NCBI GenBank assembly: GCA_003218345.1
Contig: QHNF01000006.1
Location: 1 to 10,906 of the forward strand
DNA length: 10,906 nucleotides
From: Verrucomicrobiota bacterium
GTDB lineage: Bacteria > Verrucomicrobiota > Verrucomicrobiia > Chthoniobacterales > UBA10450
Direction of reading: 5' to 3'
The notes beneath the pieces were generated by a model. That model was not told where the DNA came from. It was given only the letters and a program-made list of their open reading frames with translations, and ran no database searches. This document shows, in pieces, positions 1 to 10,906 of the stretch. The position numbers and the translations under genes were made by a program. Position 1 is the stretch's first letter. Every line of letters starts with the position of its first letter.

Positions 1-1068
1 CCAATAAATCGATTGCTGAAAATCGCCGACCATGCAGAAGTGTCCGGGCGGCGGCGGATCGATGCGCGTTTGCATCCAATCACCGGTCGCGGCCAGCGGT
101 CGCGTCGCTTCGAGCAGCACGGAAAATTGCGCCGGTTCGGTGTCCTGCGCCTCATCGAGAATGACGCGCATCTTTTCTTCGCGAATGCGCGGCGCTGCGA
201 CCGGATGTTGCAGCAATTCTTTCGCCAGCGCGATTTGATCTCCGTACGTGACGAATCCGCGCTCGAGTCGAAAATCGAGAAAATCGCGCTGCACTTCCGC
301 CGCCACGCACGTTGCAGCGGCGCTGATCCATCTGCGCAATGGCGAGAACGTCTGCGTCCAAAGATCCGAAAAATTCGAGTTCGCTGCGGTGAAGCAAACC
401 GGCCAGCGCAAATATTCCCAATCGCCAGCGTAACGTTTTTCCCACTCGCGCAATTCCGCTTGTGACTTGCTGATGTTGTCGCGACCGCGCTGATCAACTT
501 GCGCGTAAACTTCCATGAAATCGAGCCTCGGGCATGGCAGTAATTCCGGAACGCACAAGACCGCCGAACCCGCGCGTCGTCCCAATTCCATCAAATCGTG
601 CGCCTGCACAAGACGCAAAAGCGTGGCACGACTTTTTTCCCCTAACGAATGGCCGATGCGGGTCTGACTTTGCACAAATTCCTGCCAAAGGTCATTGTCA
701 TCGCTCACCAATTCGAGCGGTGCAGGCAAACCAAGATAATGACCAAAGTCGGTCAGGAGTCTCATGCAGAAGGAGTGGATCGTACCAAAGAAGGCGCGAT
801 TGAACGCCGTCTGGACTTCCGGCTTTAAATTTTCCTGGAGAAGAATCTGTCGCGCACGCTGCTGCATTTCGTCGGCCGCGCGATTCGTGAAGGTGACGAC
901 AACCAGGCGCGGCAGAATTTCAACCGCGCTTGCCGAGTGCGCGATCGACAAAACGCGTTGCGTGATCGCAGTAGTCTTGCCCGAACCGGCCGATGCGACG
1001 ACCGAAAAATTTCGATCCAGCTCGCCGGCAAATCGCGCGCGAGCGGATTCGTCGCTCAGCCTCACCAT
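1..1068 (-). CDS. addA: AddA-like UvrD/Rep-family helicase (3' end outside the window)
   Basis: The reading frame stays open from an ATG at 1068 to the left edge, so only the first 356 codons are present. The visible part is the N-terminal superfamily 1A helicase core. It shows Walker A ASAGSGKT at residues 25-32, motif Ia VVTFTNRAADEM at 57-68, GTIHSFC near residue 90, Walker B LDEAQD at 304-309, and motif III MVGDFQQSIYW at 346-356. Known family role: ATP-driven 3'-5' DNA translocation during processing of double-strand breaks, usually together with AddB. A C-terminal nuclease domain, expected for AddA, would lie outside the window. The ATG overlaps the addB stop by 7 bases (ATGGTGA), and AGGAG lies 8 bases upstream, which favours ATG over the GTG one codon later. 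The overlap implies translational coupling to addB. Helicase identity is very secure; AddA rather than another UvrD paralogue rests on the AddB-like neighbour. Confidence 0.92.
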   Translation of the reverse strand, partial: MVRLSDESARARFAGELDRNFSVVASAGSGKTTAITQRVLSIAHSASAVEILPRLVVVTFTNRAADEMQQRARQILLQENLKPEVQTAFNRAFFGTIHSFCMRLLTDFGHYLGLPAPLELVSDDNDLWQEFVQSQTRIGHSLGEKSRATLLRLVQAHDLMELGRRAGSAVLCVPELLPCPRLDFMEVYAQVDQRGRDNISKSQAELREWEKRYAGDWEYLRWPVCFTAANSNFSDLWTQTFSPLRRWISAAATCVAAEVQRDFLDFRLERGFVTYGDQIALAKELLQHPVAAPRIREEKMRVILDEAQDTEPAQFSVLLEATRPLAATGDWMQTRIDPPPPGHFCMVGDFQQSIYW

Positions 1069-4000
1069 ATTTCCCACTCCTCTTTTTCGAGCACAAGCGC
1101 GGGATGGGTTAAGGCCCATTTATCCTCCAAAATGTCGTTATCGATTTGCAATGTCGCGAGCGGATATGGCGCACTGTAACCAAACGCGGGACGAATCTCC
1201 CCTTTCATCCCGAAAACGCCCGTGCGCTGCATTTCCCCGAGATCGACGAAGATATTGGTATGAGGCGCAAGATCGACAGCGGACAATTGCGGCGCGACGT
1301 TTTTCACCGCGCTCGAAAGAATACTTGCGCTCACTTCCACCGCGCCAAGCTCGCGCATCGCCAGCGAATAGAGTCCGATCTGCAACGCTGTCCCTTTAAC
1401 GAGACCGTCGTGCAAATCGGAAGATTTTAGCTCTTTGGTCCAACCAGTTTTGTAATCGACAATCCAAATCTTTTGTCCTGCGAAGTTGGATGCGTCATTT
1501 TGCGCGAGCACCAAATCGATCTGGCCGCGCAGATGAAGTTCCACTTCCTCGGTTATTTTCACCGCGCCTTCGCGACCGATGGGCAACTCCGCCGCCATCC
1601 AACTCCAACCTTCGACGCCCGCAATTTTGCCGCCGAGATGCCGCGCGAGATAACGTGCGTTTAACCAGTCCGAGTTCCACCAATCAGGCACGACTTTGCC
1701 TAACGCGTCGCAAAGTTGCTGGAGCGCGGCGCGACGTTCGTCGGCAGAAACGCGGACGCGCTCATCTATTATTGTCGATGAAGGAAATGTTGCGAAAAGA
1801 TTCCCATCTTTCCTCTCGCCGATCCTCGCCAGCCAGCAATGCACCCATTTGCCGCTCGTTGCCGCCCACCGATTCGCGGTGTCTTCCGGCGGTTCGACAC
1901 CGAGATGGCGTTTCATCCAAATAATCGCCGGCGACGACACCGTGTGTTCGAGATCGCTGACACTCAGCGTAGGCATTGGCCGATACGACTGATTAGTCCG
2001 CAACGCGAAATCGTATTCGCTTGCAGGTTTCGAAGCATCGCGGCGCGCGTTGAATGCGATCAAAGTTTGCTTTACGTCCGTGTGTGGCGGCTCGGATTCG
2101 CGAGTCAACAGGCGCGGATCATTGACGAATTGCGCAGTCGCGCGTTGCAAATGTTTCAATGTTGCTTGCGTAAGCGGTTCGCGCCTCGTCGTGAGGTAGA
2201 GCTGAGTGAAATATTCGCTCGGGTTCCACCAACGCTCCGGCGCGTCTTCCTGCACCAGACTGGCCGCGAGCGTCACGCCTTCGCTGGCCGATTCGAGCAT
2301 CCCATCGAATTGTCGCAACGCAATCGCGCGTTGCTCGCTCGGGCCGAGATAGAGCGAATGATTTTCGCGCACGCTGGTGTGGCCTTCGCCCTGACTTCCC
2401 TGGCGCGCGGCGCGTTTATTGAGCTGCTGCACGCTGCGATTGAAGGAGCGAATTTCTTCCGCGCGCGCGAACTCCGCGCCAGTCGGCGGTGGCCACGCGC
2501 CTTCGTTCCAGCCGGCAAAGATCAGGTGCGACCATTCCTGATTTTGCGCGTGCGCCACGGTGAGCAAATGCACGCGCGCGTACGGATGATCGCCCTCGGC
2601 TGAACGCGCCGCGCCAAACGTCGCAGCCGTTTCTTCAAGCCATCGCAGAAAGAGGGCGCGCCGGAATTCCGCATCGAGACGTTGCGGCCAATCGCGCGTG
2701 ACTCTGGCAATTTCGAGCGCGTGTTGCTTCCAACCGAGATACGCGAGCGCGGCGTGCGTTTGTTCGAGAAACTGCGCGAGCATGGCGCGCGGGGGAAGAA
2801 ACGGCAACGCGCGCAACGCCTCGGCGGCCGATTGAAATTTCTTATCGGTGCGTGCGGCGCAAAATTCGCGCAGAACTTCGAGATCATCCAGCAACACTTC
2901 GCTATAACTTTCGCGCAGAATGTTTTCGAAGGCGGACCGGCTAAGAGACGTCGATAACACCGTGGGATCGGACAACGCGTTTAGAAAACGCAGGAAAGAA
3001 TTGAGTCGCGGCGCGCGTTGCAATTCGATCCATGCTTGCCATTCTGCCGATTCGAAGATGCCGGGAACGATGTGAGCGAGCCCGTCGTTGTGCGGGATGT
3101 CGAGTCGCGCCAGCGAGCTCGAGACCAGACGTGGCAACGCACCGCTGCCGGAGAAAATCACGCCGAGCCGCTTGCATTTTTCCTCCGACAAATAACGAAC
3201 GCATTGCCGCGCGATCGCTTCGGCTTGTTCCGAGACGTTTGTGCCGATGAGAAAATCGAAACGCTTTGCAGGTGCCGCGCCACCGCGCATTTCCGCTTCG
3301 CTAAAAAACGAATCGCTAAGCGCGTGTGTCGATTTTTGCGCGCGTTGCGCTTCGCCACAGACTTCTTCCCACGAACCGATCCAGCAAAGATCGATGTCAG
3401 AAAAGTCGCCACGCGGTTCTTCGACCGCGATCGTTGCGTTTTCCGCAAGCTCGACCGTGTTGCGCAGGAGAAACCACTGTGGCCAATGCGCTCCGTCGAA
3501 CCCGGTAATGAGCACGTGAGAAAATTTTCGCTCGCCACGCGCCGCTTGTTGCAAATGCAGTCGATCGGCTTCGCCCAACAGAAGAAAATCGCATTTTTTC
3601 AGGAGCTCGTTGAAACGTTGAACGACTGGTGCAAACGCCGGCAGCGCGAGTTCTTTGAATTTCCATCCGGCAGTTTCCAAACGATCCAACGCGCGCAGCA
3701 GCAGCGCCGGCGCACGGGCAACGGCTTTGGCGGCGAGTGCTTCCGATTCGTTAGGCCGGTCTTCCATTTCGCTCGCAGCAATTGCGAGGAGCAAGCGCAG
3801 ATGTTCCGGCTGCGCATGTGGCGTCGCATCATCTCGCGCGAGCAATGCCCGCAAACTTGCCAGTGTCACAAACTGCAAACCGAAATGCGAATAGCCTTTT
3901 GCAATCAAGCGCGCCTTCAGATCGTTGGCCTGCCCTCGCGTTGGGACGATGACCAGCGAAGGCAACGTGCGGTTCCACGTCTCGGGCAAAACTCGTTCGA

Positions 4001-4076
4001 ACCAGGGCGCAATCGCATCGTCCCACGCTTCCCGTAGCGACGGCACAACGAGCAGGACTGGTCGCGATCGCTCCAT
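1062..4076 (-). CDS. addB: AddB/RecB-type PD-(D/E)XK nuclease, 1004 aa
   Basis: This is a large AddB-like protein. The C-terminal RecB-type nuclease carries H746, GQID at 851-854, VDYKTG at 873-878 and QIGLY at 899-903, giving putative catalytic H746, D854, D874, K876, Q899 and Y903. GWNEGAWPP at 522-530 matches the NEGxxP signature of AddB-like inactive helicase regions. The N-terminus (LLVVPSLREAWDD) has no Walker A GKT/GKS, so the helicase half looks structural. The sequence has SSPA at 714-717, where iron-sulphur AddB proteins usually have a Cys-Pro pair, and no cysteine after residue 789, so the usual 4Fe-4S clamp appears absent. The start is fixed by an in-frame TGA two codons upstream of the ATG; GAGGG sits unusually close to it. 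The gene begins 25 bases after selB and overlaps the addA-like gene by 7 bases. Predicted role: DNA end resection for recombination, in complex with the AddA-like partner. Confidence 0.9.
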   Translation of the reverse strand: MERSRPVLLVVPSLREAWDDAIAPWFERVLPETWNRTLPSLVIVPTRGQANDLKARLIAKGYSHFGLQFVTLASLRALLARDDATPHAQPEHLRLLLAIAASEMEDRPNESEALAAKAVARAPALLLRALDRLETAGWKFKELALPAFAPVVQRFNELLKKCDFLLLGEADRLHLQQAARGERKFSHVLITGFDGAHWPQWFLLRNTVELAENATIAVEEPRGDFSDIDLCWIGSWEEVCGEAQRAQKSTHALSDSFFSEAEMRGGAAPAKRFDFLIGTNVSEQAEAIARQCVRYLSEEKCKRLGVIFSGSGALPRLVSSSLARLDIPHNDGLAHIVPGIFESAEWQAWIELQRAPRLNSFLRFLNALSDPTVLSTSLSRSAFENILRESYSEVLLDDLEVLREFCAARTDKKFQSAAEALRALPFLPPRAMLAQFLEQTHAALAYLGWKQHALEIARVTRDWPQRLDAEFRRALFLRWLEETAATFGAARSAEGDHPYARVHLLTVAHAQNQEWSHLIFAGWNEGAWPPPTGAEFARAEEIRSFNRSVQQLNKRAARQGSQGEGHTSVRENHSLYLGPSEQRAIALRQFDGMLESASEGVTLAASLVQEDAPERWWNPSEYFTQLYLTTRREPLTQATLKHLQRATAQFVNDPRLLTRESEPPHTDVKQTLIAFNARRDASKPASEYDFALRTNQSYRPMPTLSVSDLEHTVSSPAIIWMKRHLGVEPPEDTANRWAATSGKWVHCWLARIGERKDGNLFATFPSSTIIDERVRVSADERRAALQQLCDALGKVVPDWWNSDWLNARYLARHLGGKIAGVEGWSWMAAELPIGREGAVKITEEVELHLRGQIDLVLAQNDASNFAGQKIWIVDYKTGWTKELKSSDLHDGLVKGTALQIGLYSLAMRELGAVEVSASILSSAVKNVAPQLSAVDLAPHTNIFVDLGEMQRTGVFGMKGEIRPAFGYSAPYPLATLQIDNDILEDKWALTHPALVLEKEEWEIW

Positions 4077-4101: not shown

Positions 4102-6009
4102 CTACGCGAGCACGCGCTTGTCGCCGATGCGGCGCGTCACACCTTGTCGATCCAGCTTTTCGAGAAATGGCACCATGATTCGGCGCGAGCTCTCGAGCGC
4201 CTGCCGTAGCTCGCTCACAGTCGCTGGTCCGTTTTTGGAAATGAAATCAGCGACCGCGTTTTTCATCCGTTCGAAATTCTCGCGTAGCAGCACTACATCG
4301 GAGGCAATTTCGATGACTTCTCCACTCTCGATCAAGAATCTGAGAACTCGCTGCGCATTTCGATCTAACTCGATCTCTCTACACGGTAGTGGGTCGAATG
4401 GTTTTTTCGAGAGCGCTTCGCGAACTTTCGTCTCGACCGATTGAAATTCCACCGGCAACGCCGGCCGATGCGCAGTTCGCGAGATGACCGATCCCTTACG
4501 GACAAAATTGTCCGTGCATAGATCCACAATCAGCGCTTCGAAGACGTCTGGCCGTTGATCGCGTAGGCCTGTTCGTAATTCCCTCAGATCGAAACCCGCC
4601 CGATCGGGATTTCGCTTGTGTGCCTTTTCGATAACGGCGATCGCCTGGTTCCGCAGCTTTTTCCAAAATTCGGACTCTACCGCGAGGTCGCCATGCGCGA
4701 AAATTTCGTTCCCGTTTCGTAAACGAAGAAAGGCATCCCCAATTTCATTGGCACCAAAATGCGACTTGCTTAGAAGCGTTTCTCTCCGCGCGAATCCGCG
4801 CAGCGCAATCTCGGAGCGCACGCAGAGATCGACATCGTCCAATGCAAGGGCGCGCGCAGCCAGTAATGTTTGCTGCTTTGCATCGAGAAATTTCCCCTTG
4901 TCCGGAGCGAGAACCAGTCCACCAGCGATGGTGTGCTGTTCGGATGCGTCCCGCACGACGAAGCGATCGCCGAGGAACGCAAGGATCGGCGAGGCGAGTT
5001 TTAGCTGAGCAATCGCTTTCTTGCCGGCTTGGAGCGCACCGTTTTCGAGCAAAACGATCTTCGCAGCAACGCGTGATGTGCCATGATGAACGTAGACCGA
5101 GCTTCCATTCTTCAGCGGACGAGCGGCTGGACTTTCAATGCCAAGCCGCTCCGATCTTTCGAGGCACGCTACGAGAGTGGGACTTGCTCTTCCCACATCG
5201 ACAATGGTGATCACGTCGCCGCGCTTGATCTGCCCTGCGCCATCGCCGACGCCGACATCTGGAAGGTTAATGGCCGTCCTCATTCCGGATTGCGCGAATT
5301 CCAACTCGCGCCCGTGACTTTGAATGGAGCGAACTCGCGTTTCGAGATTGCTCGGTTGGACAACGATTTTCTGTCCGCGTCGCAATTGCCCGCCAGTTAG
5401 CGTTCCTGTTACGATGGTACCAATTCCATGCAGTACAAAAGCGCGATCAATAAATAAGCGCGGTTTTCCAATATCCCGTTGTGGTTGCATGTTCGCGAAC
5501 TCTGAGGCGAGCGCGCTCTTTAAGTTCTCAATTCCTTCGCTGGTGCGCACCGAAGTTCGAATAATCGGAGCTCGCGCGAAACCGGTGTCACGCAGTCGCT
5601 CGCGAATTTGTGCGACGATGCTGCCGGCGTCGCCCACATCGCTTTTCGTAAGCGCGATCACCGCGCGTTCCACGCCAAGATAAGTCAGAATCTGCAAATG
5701 TTCTTCGGTTTGTGGCATCCAACCGTCGTCCACGGCGACAACAAACAGCGCAAGATCAACTGAACCAACGCCCGCGATCATGTTGCGGACGAAATCCTCG
5801 TGCCCGGGCACATCGACGATTCCGACATGGAATCGCTGCTCGTTAGGCCCTTTAAGAATTAACTGCGCAAACCCGAGATCAATCGTGATTTGTCTCGCTT
5901 TTTCCTCCGGCAATCGATCAGGATCAGTTCCAGTGAGTGCCTCGACCAGCGCGCTCTTGCCGTGATCGACGTGACCGGCAGTCGCGAGAATGAAATGTTT
6001 CGCAGTCAT
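4102..6009 (-). CDS. selB: Selenocysteine-specific elongation factor SelB
   Basis: SelB is the EF-Tu-like GTPase that binds selenocysteyl-tRNA-Sec and the SECIS hairpin and delivers Sec at UGA. With the chosen start the protein has 635 residues, normal for bacterial SelB. GTPase motifs are G1 GHVDHGKS at 12-19, switch I ITIDLGFA at 41-48, G3 DVPGHEDF at 66-73 and G4 TKSD at 121-124. Translation-factor beta-barrel domains follow (FVLHGIGTIVTGTL), then the winged-helix RNA-binding tail ending in LDRQGVTRRIGDKRVLA. An upstream in-frame GTG at 6039 would add ten residues (MDCPNPIPRP) lying in repeat-like spacer DNA. The ATG at 6009 fits the family, where the G1 loop lies very near the N-terminus, although neither start has a well-spaced Shine-Dalgarno. 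The gene follows selA after 173 bases. Position 40 is Q where I expect G (RGITIDLG in relatives). Identity is near certain. Confidence 0.97.
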   Translation of the reverse strand: MTAKHFILATAGHVDHGKSALVEALTGTDPDRLPEEKARQITIDLGFAQLILKGPNEQRFHVGIVDVPGHEDFVRNMIAGVGSVDLALFVVAVDDGWMPQTEEHLQILTYLGVERAVIALTKSDVGDAGSIVAQIRERLRDTGFARAPIIRTSVRTSEGIENLKSALASEFANMQPQRDIGKPRLFIDRAFVLHGIGTIVTGTLTGGQLRRGQKIVVQPSNLETRVRSIQSHGRELEFAQSGMRTAINLPDVGVGDGAGQIKRGDVITIVDVGRASPTLVACLERSERLGIESPAARPLKNGSSVYVHHGTSRVAAKIVLLENGALQAGKKAIAQLKLASPILAFLGDRFVVRDASEQHTIAGGLVLAPDKGKFLDAKQQTLLAARALALDDVDLCVRSEIALRGFARRETLLSKSHFGANEIGDAFLRLRNGNEIFAHGDLAVESEFWKKLRNQAIAVIEKAHKRNPDRAGFDLRELRTGLRDQRPDVFEALIVDLCTDNFVRKGSVISRTAHRPALPVEFQSVETKVREALSKKPFDPLPCREIELDRNAQRVLRFLIESGEVIEIASDVVLLRENFERMKNAVADFISKNGPATVSELRQALESSRRIMVPFLEKLDRQGVTRRIGDKRVLA

Positions 6010-6052
6010 CGGTCGTGGAATTGGATTTGGACAGTCCACATTCCTCGCGCGC

Positions 6053-6182: not shown

Positions 6183-7556
6183 TCAAAGGCGTTGGGAACA
6201 TGCTGTGCGAATCGCGTCAACGACCAGATCATCCTGTTGCGGGAAGATTGTTCGGAGGTCGAGTTTGAATCTGTCGTTCGCGATATGGCCGATCACTGGT
6301 GGTCGCGAATTGCGCAGGCGGACAGCGAGATCGGCCAGCGAACAATTCCTGGGAACAATATCGACCGTGACTGAGGAGATCGTTGATTTTGGCAAAGTGC
6401 CGCCGCCAACCTTAACTACGCTGTGGCCAATTGTGATTTGCGCTGGCACGCCCTCGAGGCGTTTCACGATCGCTTCGGCTCGAATGCGCAATTCATCTTC
6501 CGAGACCTGCAGGAGGGCAATCGCAGGAATTCCGGCTGCTGATTGATTGAGATGAAGATCGACAGTGGCCTGCAGCGCGGCGAGACAAAGCTTGTCGCAT
6601 CGCAGGGCGCGAAATAATGGTTCGCGTTTCAATGCGGCTACGAATCGCCTCTTTCCAGCAATGATACCCGCTTGCGGCCCGCCAAATAGTTTGTCGCCGC
6701 TGAAGCAAACGAGGTCGGCTCCATCCTTCAACGCTTCAGATGGGGTCGGTTCGTGCTCGACAATTCCAAATTGTTCCGTTTCAACAATCGCGCCGCTTCC
6801 CAAATCTTCGACAAAGGGAGTGCGTTTCTTGCGCGCAATGCCGGCGATCTCCGCCGTGGACGGCGATCTGACAAAGCCGCTCATAAAAAAGTTACTGCGA
6901 TGAACCTTGAAGATGATCGCAGTGTCGCGCCCGATGGCTCGCGAGTAATCGCTGATAGTTGTTTTGTTGGTAGCGCCGATTTCGCGGAGTTTCGCCCCAG
7001 TCGCTTCGATGATTTCGCCAATGCGGAATCCGCCGCCGATCTGGACCATCTCGCCACGCGAGATCACGACTTCTGGTTTCAGTCTCGTGAAATGATGAAC
7101 GATCAGCACCAACGCGGCCGCGCAATTGTTCACCACCGCCGCCGTTTCGGCTCCGCAAAGCAGCGCCAGCGCATTCTCGATGTAAGCGCCGCGCCGGCCA
7201 CGTTCACCCGTTGCCAGATCATACTCGAGATTGGAGTAGCCCGAGCTAGCTTCGCCGAGCGCGCGGATCGCGTCGGGAGCAAGCGGAGCGCGCCCGAAAT
7301 TCGTGTGAATGACAATCCCGGTTCCATTGATAATCGGCTGGAGTCGACTGGCCCGAAGTTCATTGAGCGAGCGGCGGACAAGACTCACAATTAATTCAAA
7401 TTCGGGGACCTCGCTCTTTGCGCGAATCTGCGAAAGTTCGCGGCGAACAACATTGACAATCATTGGCCGCGGCAAATCGTAATAGCTCAGCGCATCGAGG
7501 ACCTTGGTCACGGCGGGGATTTGCCGGCGCGCGCGTGATTTTATCTGGTCATGCAT
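6183..7556 (-). CDS. selA: L-seryl-tRNA(Sec) selenium transferase SelA
   Basis: SelA is the PLP enzyme that converts Ser-tRNA-Sec to Sec-tRNA-Sec using selenophosphate; characterised bacterial SelA is a homodecamer. The 457-residue length fits the family (about 460). The substrate region INGTGIVIHTNFGRAPL spans 76-92, and SGDKLFGGPQAG at 286-297 holds the PLP-binding lysine K289. GERGRRGAYIENAL at 117-130 and VVNNCAAALVL at 141-151 are also typical. The ATG at 7556 lies inside the end of selD, with a 16-base overlap, so translation is probably coupled. I see no good Shine-Dalgarno, and a GC-rich dyad (7564-7578) lies just upstream, consistent with opening by ribosomes finishing selD. The stop is an ordinary UGA. 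Identity is near certain. Confidence 0.97.
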   Translation of the reverse strand: MHDQIKSRARRQIPAVTKVLDALSYYDLPRPMIVNVVRRELSQIRAKSEVPEFELIVSLVRRSLNELRASRLQPIINGTGIVIHTNFGRAPLAPDAIRALGEASSGYSNLEYDLATGERGRRGAYIENALALLCGAETAAVVNNCAAALVLIVHHFTRLKPEVVISRGEMVQIGGGFRIGEIIEATGAKLREIGATNKTTISDYSRAIGRDTAIIFKVHRSNFFMSGFVRSPSTAEIAGIARKKRTPFVEDLGSGAIVETEQFGIVEHEPTPSEALKDGADLVCFSGDKLFGGPQAGIIAGKRRFVAALKREPLFRALRCDKLCLAALQATVDLHLNQSAAGIPAIALLQVSEDELRIRAEAIVKRLEGVPAQITIGHSVVKVGGGTLPKSTISSVTVDIVPRNCSLADLAVRLRNSRPPVIGHIANDRFKLDLRTIFPQQDDLVVDAIRTACSQRL

Positions 7557-8599
7557 ATCAAGGGCCGGCGACGCCGGCGGGGCGCAATTCTTCCGATCAC
7601 CGTCGCGGAAGGTGTGCGCGCTTTTCGCAGGATACTCAGCACTTTCTCAAGGCTCGCTTCAGCAACGCAAAGGAGTAGTCCACCGCTAGTCTGCGCGTCG
7701 GTTAAGAGAATTCTGCGAGCCTCATCTGTACCTTGCCAGTCAACGAGGACAGTCGTCGCATGGAAATTTTGCCGGCTTCCTTCTGGGACGCAGCCCTGTT
7801 CGATAAGATCGCCAATCTCATCGCTAATCATCGGCACGGCGGCTGGATTTATATCGGCGGAAACACGACTGGCGCGGCATAATGAAACCAGATGACCAAT
7901 GAGACCGTAGCCGGTGATATCTGTAGCTGCACGCACCAGGCGAAGCTCAGCCAATTCGGCGCCTACAATGTTAATTTTCGACATAAGGGCGATCACTGCT
8001 TTCTGGAGCGCGCCAGAAGCAAATCCGCGCTTGATTGCGGTAGTCGCGACGCCAGTGCCCAGCGGCTTCGTTAACACCAGCAGATCGCCGGGACGCGCAT
8101 TTGCATTCGTCGTCAGACGGCGGACATCGACGATTCCGGTGACGGCCAGGCCATAAATTGGTTCGGGATTACGGATGGAATGGCCGCCGATGATCATGCA
8201 TCCGACTTCGGCTGCCTTGGCAAGACCGCCGCGCAAAATGGAAGAAATCACTCTTGGTCGAACGAGATCAGCCGGGAAACCAACGATGTTCAGCGCGGTC
8301 AACGGGCGCCCGCCCATCGCGAAGATATCGGAAAGCGAATTGGCTGCAGCGATTTGTCCGTAGGAAAATGGGTCGTCCACAATGGGCGTAAAGAAATCAA
8401 CCGTCTGCACGAGAGCGCGATGTCGATCCAGGCGATACACGCCGGCGTCGTCGAAAGTGTTCGAGCTGACGAGCACGTTCCGGTCTAAGGAAATGGGAAG
8501 CTGCGGCAAAACTTGTCGCAGGGCCTGTTGGCTCAACTTGGACGCTCATCCTGCGCACGATGAGAGTGAAGTGAGTTTTCGGATTTGCTCACGCGACAT
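7541..8599 (-). CDS. selD: Selenide, water dikinase SelD, a selenoprotein (UGA = Sec18)
   Basis: SelD makes selenophosphate from selenide and ATP, the selenium donor for SelA. The conserved body includes SSNTFDDAGVY, TVDFFTPIVDDPFSYG, NSLSDIFAMGG, GGHSI and TDITGYGLIGHL. A conventional open frame starts only at TTG 8536, after the active site should have occurred. Extending upstream in the same frame crosses one TGA (8546-8548) and reaches ATG 8599: MSREQIRKLTSLSSCAG-Sec-ASKL. Sec18 and K21 match the spacing of the catalytic Cys17/Sec and Lys20 of E. coli-type SelD (GAGCGCK, or GUGCK in Sec forms). The ATG has a perfect AAGGAGGTGA five bases upstream, and tRNA-Sec, SelA and SelB are adjacent. 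Full length is 352 residues, normal for the family. The C-terminus is oddly arginine-rich (APRRRRRP). It overlaps selA by 16 bases. Identity is near certain; Sec recoding is very likely. Confidence 0.95.
8513..8536 (-). promoter_or_regulatory. Candidate bacterial SECIS hairpin of selD
   Basis: Ten to 33 bases after the Sec UGA, the mRNA can form an apical CAG/CUG stem with a GCC loop, and below it UUG/CAA pairing across an internal loop. The apical loop begins with G and lies about 21 bases from the UGA, within the range expected for bacterial SECIS elements. The pairing is short and was found by eye without folding energies, and a competing GCC-AACA-GGC hairpin exists. Confidence 0.4.
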
Positions 8600-8604
8600 C
8601 GAGG

Positions 8605-8614
8605 TCACCTCCTT
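8605..8614 (-). promoter_or_regulatory. Perfect Shine-Dalgarno sequence that fixes the selD start
   Basis: The minus strand reads AAGGAGGTGA, complementary to the whole 16S rRNA 3' tail, with five bases (CCTCG) before ATG 8599. It shows that translation starts upstream of the in-frame TGA and predicts strong initiation. It lies 39 bases after the tRNA-Sec end, in a pyrimidine-rich leader. Confidence 0.9.
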
Positions 8615-8652
8615 TCGAGAAAATGAAGATTAAGAGGAAGAGAAAGATTGTG

Positions 8653-8749
8653 CGGAGAGGATAGGAATCGAACCTACCTCGGTCCCGCTGGTGCGGAATC
8701 GACAACGGTTTTGAAGACCGCGAGGGCCACCAGGCACCCTTCACTCTCC
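8653..8749 (-). tRNA. selC: tRNA-Sec (anticodon UCA)
   Basis: This 97-base tRNA decodes UGA as selenocysteine. The anticodon loop CTTCAAA (8716-8710) holds TCA at 8714-8712, closed by CGGT/ACCG. Other tRNA-Sec hallmarks are a long variable arm with TTCCGC/GCGGGA around ACCA (8698-8683), a D arm with a short TGGT loop, and the T arm GTAGG-TTCGATT-CCTAT (8677-8661). The acceptor begins GGAGAG and pairs with CTCTCC, followed by discriminator G at 8653; the genome then reads CAC, so CCA is not encoded. Only 12 bases separate the T loop from the discriminator, where canonical bacterial tRNA-Sec (8+5 bp) has 13, and U7 faces C. It lies between the SelW-like gene and selD, both predicted selenoproteins, on the same strand, and may be processed from a common transcript. 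Confidence 0.95.
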
Positions 8750-8750
8750 A

Positions 8751-8785
8751 GATTGTGGATTGTGGATTGCGGATTGCGGATTGCG
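8751..8785. repeat. Five tandem copies of a 7-base unit (GATTGYG)
   Basis: The plus strand reads two GATTGTG units followed by three GATTGCG units without a break, starting two bases upstream of the tRNA-Sec 5' end. This occupies the spot where a separate selC promoter would be. Similar short GGATTGCG-type repeats occur between genes in many bacteria. I see no convincing promoter here. Confidence 0.85.
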
Positions 8786-8823
8786 AATGATCGACAATTG
8801 GTCTTCGCGGTACAGAGCGGATT

Positions 8824-9060
8824 TTATTTTGCCTTCTTGATTGCGCTGACCATAGCGTCGAAATCCGGCCAGTCGCCGGTATCGAGTTTGGAATGGAGAA
8901 GTTTGCCATTGGCGCGGATCTCGAAGGCGCCCCCGCTCGAAGGGATGAGCGTGAGCGACTTGATGCGCTCGCCGAGCTCAAGAATTTTGGTCGCCAAACT
9001 GACGGCCTTCGGCGTGTAGTTTCAAACGACGCAGTATTCGATCGATACCTCGGTTTTCAC
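8824..9060 (-). CDS. SelW-like (Rdx family) selenoprotein with CVVU redox motif
   Basis: This 78-residue thioredoxin-fold protein is visible only if TGA at 9022-9024 is read as Sec13. It reads MKTEVSIEYCVVU and then NYTPKAVSLATKILEL, giving a C-x-x-U motif after the first beta strand, as in SelW/SelT/SelH/Rdx12 proteins. Downstream, SSGGAFEIRANGKLLHSK (41-58) matches the Rdx core (GGxFEVxxxGxxIxSK), and DWPDFDAMVSAIKKAK closes the fold. The similarity continues in one frame on both sides of the TGA, so a pseudogene is unlikely. The GTG start at 9060 has AAGGAG seven bases upstream (9068-9073), and a candidate promoter lies just before that. The stop is TAA. It is first in the sel cluster, 74 bases before selC. 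Family role: small redox protein; the substrate is unknown. Family membership is very likely; the exact subfamily is not settled. Confidence 0.9.
8989..9015 (-). promoter_or_regulatory. Region likely to hold the SECIS of the SelW-like gene
   Basis: Two mutually exclusive hairpins can be drawn just after the Sec UGA. One is ACGCC-GAA-GGCCGT with one bulged C, at +7 to +20, rather close to the UGA. The other is GGCCGT with GCGACC around a seven-base loop, at +15 to +33, containing one C-A mismatch and a G-U pair. The second has the more usual distance. I cannot choose between them by eye. Confidence 0.3.
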
Positions 9061-9083
9061 CAACGAGCTCCTTTCCGACAATG

Positions 9084-9112
9084 AAAGTATCGATGCGATG
9101 AAATGAGGTCAA
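9084..9112 (-). promoter_or_regulatory. Candidate sigma-70-type promoter for the sel cluster
   Basis: On the minus strand TTGACC (9112-9107, five of six matches to the -35 consensus) is followed after exactly 17 bases by TACTTT (9089-9084, a weak -10). The ribosome-binding site AAGGAG begins 10 bases further on, so the leader would be very short. It is the only good promoter candidate I find upstream of the SelW-like gene. Confidence 0.4.
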
Positions 9113-9154
9113 GGAATGTCCCAGGCGCATCCGCGCGCTGCCGCGCTCTCGGTA

Positions 9155-9197
9155 GCACACGCGTCTCGCGTGCTGGCGATGACGTCCTCGCCATCGC
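9155..9197. repeat. Double inverted repeat in the intergenic region
   Basis: CACGCG-TCT-CGCGTG (9158-9172), with an outer AGC/GCT, is followed at once by GCGATG/CATCGC (9176-9197), which overlaps an alternative GGCGA/TCGCC pairing. The pattern resembles compound palindromic intergenic repeats. It lies about 95 bases upstream of the SelW-like start, beyond the candidate promoter. No coding frame here looks real. Confidence 0.5.
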
Positions 9198-9251
9198 GAA
9201 CTTCTCGTGTGAACGCAATCCAAAATCAGACGCGAAATGTCTGGAAAGTTC

Positions 9252-9272
9252 GTTTCGGCGGGGCGCTGAAAC
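9252..9272. repeat. Nine-base-pair hairpin with GGG loop
   Basis: GTTTCGGCG and CGCTGAAAC flank GGG and pair over nine positions, with one G-U. No T-run follows on either strand, so I do not call it an intrinsic terminator. Confidence 0.5.
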
Positions 9273-9285
9273 CAGCACGAGAGAG

Positions 9286-9311
9286 GCGTGCGCTACCAAC
9301 TATCGGCACGC
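9286..9311. repeat. Short inverted repeat GCGTGC/GCACGC
   Basis: Six-base arms at 9286-9291 and 9306-9311 are separated by 14 bases. It is weak alone and is listed because it sits in a 475-base gene-free stretch dense with such dyads. Confidence 0.35.
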
Positions 9312-9400
9312 AACTGTCCGCGTTGCGTACGCACCCAGCCAAGGTCATCCGCCTTCGCTGCGCTACCGCGTGGCAGTGCGCAAGCACAGCTACAACTTAG

Positions 9401-9448
9401 GAAGTGTAGCCGCAGCCCGCTCCACCGGGCTGCGGCATGCTCCACTTC
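9401..9448. repeat. Nested palindrome with a perfect 10-bp stem
   Basis: CCGCAGCCCG (9410-9419) pairs perfectly with CGGGCTGCGG (9426-9435) around a six-base loop. An outer GAAGTG (9401-9406) pairs with CACTTC (9443-9448). Two nested levels suggest a dispersed palindromic element of the GTAGCCGC...GCGGC kind rather than a simple terminator; no T-run follows on either strand. Confidence 0.6.
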
Positions 9449-9495
9449 AGAAAGCGCGGAAACAACCGCGGCTTTTAGCCCTGAAGAAGTCTTTG

Positions 9496-9517
9496 GAAGC
9501 GCCGGCCCCGGCGCTTC
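9496..9517 (-). terminator. Perfect 10-bp dyad after the outer-membrane gene, possible terminator
   Basis: GAAGCGCCGG and CCGGCGCTTC flank CC, 18 bases after the stop of the outer-membrane gene in its reading direction. The stem is strong, but the minus strand continues CAAAGACTTCTTC without a clear T-run. It may be a weak intrinsic terminator, a 3'-end stabilising hairpin, or another repeat. Confidence 0.45.
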
Positions 9518-9535
9518 TTACCGTGACTGTCGACG

Positions 9536-10906
9536 TTAGAAGGCGAAGTTGAGACCGCTGCGGACCATTCCGAAATTATTTTTCGGCCCGTCGATCACGC
9601 CAAAGGTCAAGTCGTTAGTCCAACCGACGTGCCGCGCGATTCGGAATTCGAGGCCGGCTCCGAATTGGCCGACCGATTTGGTTTCGCTACCGAAGTGATG
9701 CGTCTGGGCATGCACAGTGAACGCGTCCGATGGCCCCTGGGTGGTCAGAATATCTTTTTCGCCGCCGCCGAAAATCGCACCGACACCGGCCCAGGCGTAC
9801 GGCGCGAAACGTGTGCATGGAATTGGATAGCGCAGTGTAAATGTCCCTAATAGAGCGCCAATGGTATGGTCGTGATTGATTCTCTCGCGAGTAAAAATAG
9901 GGGTCGTCGGATCCTCGAAGATATCGAAGCCGTTTTTGCTGGCATCGAGAGCGAATCCTTCAATGCCCACACCGAAGTAGCGGTGGAAAAAATATTTGAT
10001 GTCGCCGCCTCCGCCCCAAGCGTGATCGCCACCAATGTAACGGTCGAAGGTGCCGAGCACGGGGTGGCCTTCACTGGTACTTTGCACGACATCGACCAAC
10101 CAAAGATTAGGATTGTACTCGGTGTTGGTGAAAGCATAGGTGCCCCAGAGATTCACATTCCATTCGTTATCGCCGTACCATTGGGGGCACGGCGCCAGCG
10201 CGACCTGCTTCATTTCTTTTCCCGAATCTGTTCCCGAATAGTTATCGGCGACGCCAGCGCCAGAGTAGTAACGAAACCGCGTGGACACGGGCGCTTCGGC
10301 TTCGGCGCGTTCACTGCCGAAGAGCCAGGAAAAGGCAACAAAAACATCAGCCACAGGTGAATCGTCGGTGCAGCCGAATAAGGGTGAAATATCCACGCGA
10401 GTTTGCGACGTCGGCTTCCACGCGACGGTTGGACCGATGACGAAAATGTTCTCGGGATTACCGCGTGTGTCTTTGACGGTGAAATTTTTGTATTCCATTT
10501 CCACGCCGACTTTCAGGCGCTCGTTAGGTAAGAGGAACGGCATCAAGACGCTTTGTGAGAAGCCCCATTCGCGGCCGCGATCGCCGGTATTCTCTTTTTC
10601 GAAAAACCAGTTCATTGCCCACTCAAAGCGCTCGCCGAAGTCCTGGGCGAGAAGCAAACGAAATTCGTAGGCGTCGGGAACTTTCGGCGGGCCGCTCTCT
10701 TCCTCCTCCTCTCCAGGAGGCGGTGGCGCTTCTTCGTGTCGAATGGTACCGACGCCGAATTTATATTCCGCGAACAGTGTTGGGTTGAGGGGAATCTTGT
10801 TCCAGTCAGCGAGAGCCCATCGTGCTTCCAGACTCACTGTCTTCGCGCCGCCGCCGCCATTGAATCGTTCGAACTGCGCTTCCGCGGCAATCCCTAAACG
10901 ATAGGG
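9536..10906 (-). CDS. Outer-membrane beta-barrel protein, apparently two barrel modules (5' end outside the window)
   Basis: The frame is open to the right edge, so the true start and any signal peptide lie outside; 456 codons plus a TAA stop are present. The pattern is alternating aromatic and polar strands with glycine-rich turns, ending in SGLNFAF with a terminal Phe, typical of Gram-negative outer-membrane barrels. Residues about 1-197 form one run of strands (AEYKFGVG, KVGVEMEYKNF, ADVFVAFSWLFG) with an acidic, proline-rich loop, EAPPPPGEEEEE, near 59-70. After a linker containing SGKEMKQVALAPCPQWYGD, a second module begins at EWNVNLWGTYAF and continues through FGVGIEGFALD, YAWAGVGAIFGGG and FGAGLEFRIA to the end. 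The function is not recognised. No neighbour suggests a substrate, and inverted repeats separate it from the sel cluster. Surface or outer-membrane location is likely. Confidence 0.75.
   Translation of the reverse strand, partial: PYRLGIAAEAQFERFNGGGGAKTVSLEARWALADWNKIPLNPTLFAEYKFGVGTIRHEEAPPPPGEEEEESGPPKVPDAYEFRLLLAQDFGERFEWAMNWFFEKENTGDRGREWGFSQSVLMPFLLPNERLKVGVEMEYKNFTVKDTRGNPENIFVIGPTVAWKPTSQTRVDISPLFGCTDDSPVADVFVAFSWLFGSERAEAEAPVSTRFRYYSGAGVADNYSGTDSGKEMKQVALAPCPQWYGDNEWNVNLWGTYAFTNTEYNPNLWLVDVVQSTSEGHPVLGTFDRYIGGDHAWGGGGDIKYFFHRYFGVGIEGFALDASKNGFDIFEDPTTPIFTRERINHDHTIGALLGTFTLRYPIPCTRFAPYAWAGVGAIFGGGEKDILTTQGPSDAFTVHAQTHHFGSETKSVGQFGAGLEFRIARHVGWTNDLTFGVIDGPKNNFGMVRSGLNFAF

Follow-up and report, generated by a model that had tools for sequence, protein, structure and literature searches.

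A probable SelW-like selenoprotein gene with an in-frame UGA at the head of a selenocysteine machinery array in Verrucomicrobiota

The stretch of DNA analyzed here (the window; 10,906 nucleotides (nt) of contig QHNF01000006.1, assembly GCA_003218345.1) belongs to a Verrucomicrobiota bacterium of the family UBA10450, in a genus that includes Candidatus Udaeobacter. On its minus strand, 9060-8824 was identified as a gene for a small SelW-like protein of the Rdx family (selW) in which a TGA is, with high confidence, read as selenocysteine (Sec). Read-through translation resulted in 78 residues with a single TGA, located in the motif EYCVVU, and a terminal TAA. The gene had originally been predicted from the sequence alone, as a SelW-like frame with a TGA exactly at the U of CxxU, a good Shine-Dalgarno sequence before its GTG and the whole Sec machinery next to it. 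The coordinates hold, the TGA is codon 13, the Shine-Dalgarno sequence is AAAGGAG, and tRNASec, selD, selA and selB are located downstream on the same strand (Table 1); the observation is confirmed and its interpretation as a Sec-containing protein is supported. GGAG was present at most 22 nt upstream of the selW start in 50/50 copies from the window's family. The evidence is computational and consists of the protein family, the predicted fold, the conserved UGA, selection on both sides of it, a selenocysteine insertion sequence (SECIS), the machinery genes and their order.

In profile searches, the selW product matched PF10262 with 65.1 bits (cut-off 22.6, E 6.5e-18) and TIGR02174 with 56.1 bits (cut-off 34.2), and the Rdx match that had been proposed as a check of the original prediction is thereby clear of both cut-offs. 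The best NCBIfam match was NF041051 SelTWH_Campy, a model of SelT/SelW/SelH family (seleno)proteins, which was covered at positions 1-69 of 70; with 69.6 bits the protein stays below its equivalog cut-off of 88. The predicted model of the selW product has the SelW/thioredoxin-like Rdx fold, and according to model and sequence the CxxU motif is located at the end of the first strand (strand 3-10, C10-V-V-U13). Mouse SelW (2npb) and human MIEN1/C17orf37 (2ljk) are ∼30% identical to the protein. Bacterial Rdx proteins of the CxxC type are represented by 2fa8, 2obk, 2p0g, 2oka, 2ojl and 3dex, with the motif read for 2fa8 alone (CTQCNW).

An Rdx match was found in 49/83 genomes of the family, each spanning one TGA; the match of genome G044 additionally spans a TAA, which is the stop of that copy at codon 77. 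When selW loci were fetched by similarity (91 loci plus the window), all 52 distinct sequences had TGA as codon 13; the scan would have accepted Cys and many other residues there as well. In 42 sequences, the ratio of nonsynonymous to synonymous polymorphism (pN/pS) amounted to 0.118 upstream of the UGA and 0.195 downstream of it, indicating purifying selection on both sides, and reached 1.6 and 3.2 when the downstream part was read in the wrong frames (every second sequence, 21 of 42). Because pN/pS is low on both sides and high in the wrong frames, the parts before and after the UGA are considered one protein. Codon identity and pN/pS were counted without L044-L050, L090 and L091 (9/52), and pN/pS also without L041, which has a stop at codon 77. 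A frame break elsewhere in the homologues, which had been named as speaking against the gene, was not seen, and a Cys at the U position of homologues, which had been proposed as a check, is present in Cys-type relatives and in the database protein P0002; the UGA of the 52 copies aligns with it. The lone stop in an otherwise intact frame could also be read as a pseudogene or a sequencing error at codon 13. This explanation is refuted by independent genomes and is extremely improbable: besides the 52/52 distinct copies, a second phylum, that of the Anaeromyxobacter locus, had an Rdx match in 99/195 sampled genomes, with a TGA inside 97/100 of the places.

Most database entries of this gene lack its active site. 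The protein database contained 473 selW homologues, of which 120 were listed; 115/120 begin past the UGA, and 114/120 have 57 residues and start at codon 22. The remaining listed homologues are two full-length proteins (P0002 with Cys, P0003 with Leu at codon 13) and three with odd ends. For many of the listed entries the name given by the source is 'selenoprotein W-related protein', and one entry shown has the NCBI name 'hypothetical protein'. Taken at face value, the 114 entries would mean that the UGA is a true stop and that the gene is a 57-residue open reading frame (ORF) starting at TTG codon 22. However, purifying selection acts on codons 2-12 in this frame (pN/pS 0.118), these codons lie behind the Shine-Dalgarno sequence, and in the model the short form has neither the first strand nor any part of the CxxU site. 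The TTG is invariant in 43/43 copies due to its place in the SECIS hairpin described below. The short ORF was rejected on these grounds and is considered highly improbable. Since codon 22 is frozen within the SECIS, it is the recoding signal that provides the wrong start codon. The original expectation that automated callers miss the gene and leave it unannotated in related genomes needs correction, as the copies are mostly cut short and not absent. It is concluded that this is a systematic database error.

The hairpin assigned as the SECIS has the sequence GCCGUC-AGUUU-GGCGAC in the window, with its loop 21 nt past the UGA. Among 72 six-codon segments compared in 43 family copies, codons 18-23 had the highest codon identity; Val20, Ser21 and Leu22 were each encoded by one single codon in 43/43 copies, and synonymous divergence was 0.108 in codons 18-24 vs 0.416 in codons 25-75. 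For a further comparison of the hairpin, 84 copies were used, 71 of which differ from each other within the 60 nt considered. They come from Verrucomicrobia, from one Anaerolineales contig and from the phylum of the Anaeromyxobacter locus; the Cys rows L131 and L133 were not counted, and L127 and L128 had been dropped as copies of L090 and L091. All 6/6 pairs were formed in 49 of the distinct hairpins and 5/6 in 22, with three of the 71 pairing in a register displaced by one base; for all 84 copies, the numbers were 57 with 6/6 pairs and 27 with 5/6. L091, L136 and L141 form 2/6 pairs in the common register and 6/6 after a one-base shift with a 4-base loop. A G within the first two loop positions was present throughout (71/71 and 84/84). 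With the three shifted hairpins excluded (68 hairpins), the variants C-G, U-A, U-G and G-C were observed at pair 3, G-C, A-U and U-A at pair 4, U-G, C-G, U-A, G-C, A-U and G-U at pair 5, and C-G and A-U at pair 6, which indicates compensatory change; non-pairs at pairs 1-6 numbered 5, 10, 1, 6, 0 and 0. In 31 non-redundant copies, 5.32/6 pairs were formed vs 4.09 in 2000 synonymous recodings (standard deviation (sd) 0.14, maximum 4.65), and the folding energy was -11.6 vs -7.4 kcal/mol (sd 0.45, 300 recodings). When the register was slid as a control, the 84 copies dropped from 5.5 pairs to between 1.0 and 4.1. The model of bacterial SECIS elements given in PMC13188914 has a loop of 3-9 nt and an upper stem of 4-16 bp (Fig. 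2 legend), a G in the first two loop positions, a distance of 16-37 nt from the UGA and a minimum free energy of at most -7.5 kcal/mol. As far as it is described there, the window hairpin agrees with this geometry in loop, stem, loop G and spacing, and 70/84 copies also reach the energy limit, while 14/84 miss it.

Several observations weigh against a functional SECIS and a Sec-containing product. The window stem misses the energy limit with -6.9 kcal/mol (pairs enforced) and contains a single C-A mismatch in its lower part. Free folds of a wider stretch favor a different structure, the free fold around the UGA is no better than that of shuffles (z 0.14), and the hairpin is evident only by comparison with relatives. 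A slide by -3 columns (one codon) keeps 4.1/6 pairs and a slide by +3 keeps 3.3, with 1.0-2.6 for the others; because these slides still pair, part of the pairing signal is attributed to the GC pattern of the codons. The mean pLDDT (predicted local distance difference test) is only 71-75 in 4/5 AlphaFold models, and among the listed database homologues the codon-13 site is Cys in P0002 and Leu in P0003. Regarding the stem, relatives that differ by one codon (Ala for Thr24), such as L003, reach -14.1 kcal/mol, and for this reason the window hairpin is judged to be a weak but functional member of the SECIS set.

The gene selW is the first of an array selW-tRNASec-selD-selA-selB on one strand. 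Its tRNASec and SelA, SelB and SelD also bear on a possible genome-wide reassignment of UGA (e.g., to Trp), in which the codon would be read without selenium. No evidence supporting such a reassignment was found. It is contradicted by the Sec machinery, by the Cys at the codon-13 position of Cys-type relatives and by TGA stops, as selA and the gene at 1062-4076 terminate in TGA and six selW copies of the family appear to do so as well; this reading can hardly be credited. In those six copies (L011, L020, L027, L036, L047, and L048) UGA would have two meanings within one gene, and in L036 a further stop codon is located directly behind the apparent terminal UGA.

The order of the array is conserved. 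tRNASec is located directly behind selW in 48/50 family copies, 210-396 nt past the UGA. The two exceptions are L049, where the contig ends 172 nt past the UGA, and L069, where the tRNA is cut: ARAGORN found no tRNASec, and its 5' part is followed by selD sequence, a deletion or a misassembly. In L073, a near-identical tandem pair of tRNASec genes was observed 363-455 and 628-721 nt past the selW UGA, which is a duplication or an assembly artefact. L122 and L123, from another family of the phylum, have the same tRNASec neighbor, and for L124, L125, L126, L090, and L091 the sequence fetched around selW contained no tRNASec. In 47/49 genomes, selD shares the strand of selW and follows it at a distance of 181-851 nt, measured from match ends; in the other two, G037 and G017, the contigs stop 527 and 4 nt past the selW match. 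SelB or SelD was detected in 48/49 genomes with selW, the machinery without selW in 9 genomes and neither in 25; these counts include partial matches of G051, G066, G069, G011, and G074, which were added by judgement. With SelB over the cut-off alone, the numbers were 41/49 genomes with selW vs 8/34 without. In the 9 genomes with machinery only, the contig stops before the place expected for selW, assuming the usual gene order, and they are therefore no evidence for its absence. In Alphaproteobacteria, fdoGHI-selABCD clusters likewise have a selenoprotein gene beside the whole Sec machinery, as described in part of PMC8124441; there it is formate dehydrogenase in a different gene order, whereas here it is SelW together with a Sec-type SelD.

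Table 1. Features of the window related to selW and the Sec machinery.
Feature	Position	Strand	Details
Shine-Dalgarno sequence AAAGGAG ahead of the selW GTG	9068..9074	(-)	
selW, SelW-like (Rdx family) selenoprotein gene (probable)	8824..9060	(-)	GTG start, TAA stop, 78 residues
In-frame UGA, codon 13, U of CVVU	9022..9024	(-)	Read-through translation; TGA in 52/52 distinct copies
SECIS hairpin (putative)	8989..9007	(-)	Loop AGUUU 9000-8996; arms 9006-9001 and 8995-8990; 5/6 pairs plus outer G-C
tRNA-Sec (selC), anticodon TCA	8652..8749	(-)	Rfam RF01852 61.5 bits at 8654-8749; ARAGORN 8652-8749
selD, selenophosphate synthetase	7541..8599	(-)	TIGR00476 345.7 bits for 7544-8536; in-frame UGA codon 18 (8548-8546); start 8599 inferred from its own Shine-Dalgarno sequence
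selA, selenocysteine synthase	6183..7556	(-)	TIGR00474 486.2 bits; own stop codon TGA
selB, Sec-specific elongation factor	4102..6039	(-)	TIGR00475 314.2 bits; SelB-wing_3 64.9 bits

In E. coli, a SECIS-like regulatory element is located ahead of selAB. A true selenoprotein gene selW could similarly act as a selenium sensor, in which the rate of passage through codon 13 sets the expression of the genes downstream. This is consistent with the position of selW directly before tRNASec in the 48/50 family copies and the two loci of another family, and with the finding of no promoter-like site in 8500-9600 (0.2 expected by chance). Also, for a tRNASec nested in selB of Alphaproteobacteria, a balance between SelB and tRNASec has been proposed in the available part of PMC8124441. 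On the other hand, the distance from UGA to tRNASec varies between 210 and 396 nt, selD has its own Shine-Dalgarno sequence, a missing sigma-70 match is weak evidence in this phylum, and the five loci listed above showed no tRNASec in the fetched stretches. Among the mostly unrelated literature matches listed, none was useful regarding regulation by a head gene. A sensor function is regarded as improbable. It is equally improbable that selW is the fixed head of a self-contained cassette selW-selC-selD-selA-selB whose UGA-SECIS also gauges selenium during translation and thereby adjusts the tRNA and machinery genes downstream.

The reading of selW as a selenoprotein gene agrees with a known family. 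SelW-like proteins (PF10262, CxxU) are listed as an established bacterial selenoprotein family (PMC13188914, Table 1), had the most Sec sequences of all families in the marine GOS set, with 427 vs 56 Cys forms (PMC2398784, Table 2), and numbered 10 members in 2006, with very few Cys forms in Sec-using organisms (PMC1794560, Table 1). The family as such is not new. The window protein resembles the members described in these three sources in CxxU, the single Sec, a bacterial SECIS right after the UGA and few Cys relatives within the Sec-type group; it differs in the organism group, in CVVUNYTPKA, which is typical of its lineage, and in heading selC-selD-selA-selB. In eukaryotic SelW, by contrast, the SECIS is in the 3' untranslated region and not within the gene (PMC1088965, as far as available).

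C..UNYTPKA was present in 38/50 family copies vs 1/34 others, and C..U.Y.P.A in 50/50 family copies and 30/34 others. Because the latter pattern is common to both groups, CVVUNYTPKA is regarded as characteristic of a lineage among the known SelW proteins of the Sec type and not as the mark of a separate subfamily. The original suggestion that CVVU followed by NYTPKA marks a distinct subfamily was rejected as stated, based on motif counts and tree; the contrast it draws to Rdx proteins with CxxC holds, as nearly all Cys rows are on a branch of their own. In a midpoint-rooted tree of 80 columns, 31/32 Cys-type proteins were found on one branch (support 100/99), and 54 Sec-type rows outside it together with one Cys row, L133; deeper forks are unsure. 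The tree kept 86/115 rows; proteins of identical sequence were removed, as were L049 and three quarters of the rows from the near family. In the window's phylum, relatives of the Cys type carry CxxC, in most cases with RW or RF behind it, and their tail is longer; in 387 sampled genomes of this phylum an Rdx match was found in 48, with TGA in 8 and no stop in 40. L133 has the Cys version CAPCGY but retains GGTCTG where the hairpin loop would be, which may reflect a Sec-to-Cys change.

The steps by which SelD, SelA, Sec-tRNASec, SelB and SECIS act are established for bacteria (PMC9312934, in the part available). By analogy, ribosomes would start at GTG 9060, and SelB with Sec-tRNASec would bind the hairpin 21 nt past the UGA, so that Sec is inserted at codon 13; without this step, translation would end after 12 residues. 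SelD would provide selenophosphate, with which SelA would convert Ser-tRNASec to Sec-tRNASec, all of this machinery being encoded just downstream. The product would be a small Rdx/SelW protein, probably located in the cytosol, that has a thioredoxin-like fold and uses Cys10-x-x-Sec13 as its redox pair. Most likely it would be a selenol/thiol oxidoreductase that runs a selenenylsulfide cycle with a partner protein or a small thiol.

Further observations concern other genes. SelD is a second likely selenoprotein, with an in-frame UGA in CAGUASKLS (8546-8548); most selD copies listed for the family have one TGA inside, and a few full-length ones have none. A third is a formate-dehydrogenase-like protein, often an open frame of ∼1100 residues with one TGA (ARIUHSSTVPG, L044 2-3244), found with TGA in at least 37/83 family genomes; in L044 it is followed by an iron-sulphur protein, as judged by eye. 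For the genome of the window, which is incomplete, the listed matches included no TGA-bearing copy. Between selW and tRNASec (8751-8785), five tandem 7-base units CAATCCG/A are present; an exact 19-base pattern of nearly three units occurs nowhere else in the window's genome, and at least two units were found in 5/50 family loci. The gene at 1062-4076 is nuclease/helicase-like with a PD-(D/E)XK nuclease domain (profile search); 1-1119, which runs off the left end, is also nuclease/helicase-like and resembles UvrD by eye, AddAB-like being a guess.

Regarding the organisms, 37/40 named selW loci are titled as Verrucomicrobia, Spartobacteria, Chthoniobacterales or Udaeobacter, and G079, of the window's genus, has the same selW sequence as Candidatus Udaeobacter sp. 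isolate AEW3. Locus L058, on a contig titled Acidobacteria (gp4 AA25), encodes a selW protein identical to that of Verrucomicrobia contigs and is probably mis-binned. Udaeobacter itself is abundant in soil, and sample names such as '30cm' suggest a soil origin. The phylum Verrucomicrobiota is called abundant in soil in the available text of PMC12714770. Among the literature matches listed, no report of SelW or Sec use in Udaeobacter was found; in the text available of PMC7857533, the single paper among them with both terms, a Udaeobacter genome is the outgroup and selenocysteine appears only in an amino-acid list. The kind of protein is ordinary; what makes the finding valuable is the lineage, together with the constant order of the genes and the annotation error. 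Correcting the starts would restore the redox center to the cut database entries, and the results indicate selenocysteine use with a complete machinery for Candidatus Udaeobacter and its relatives.
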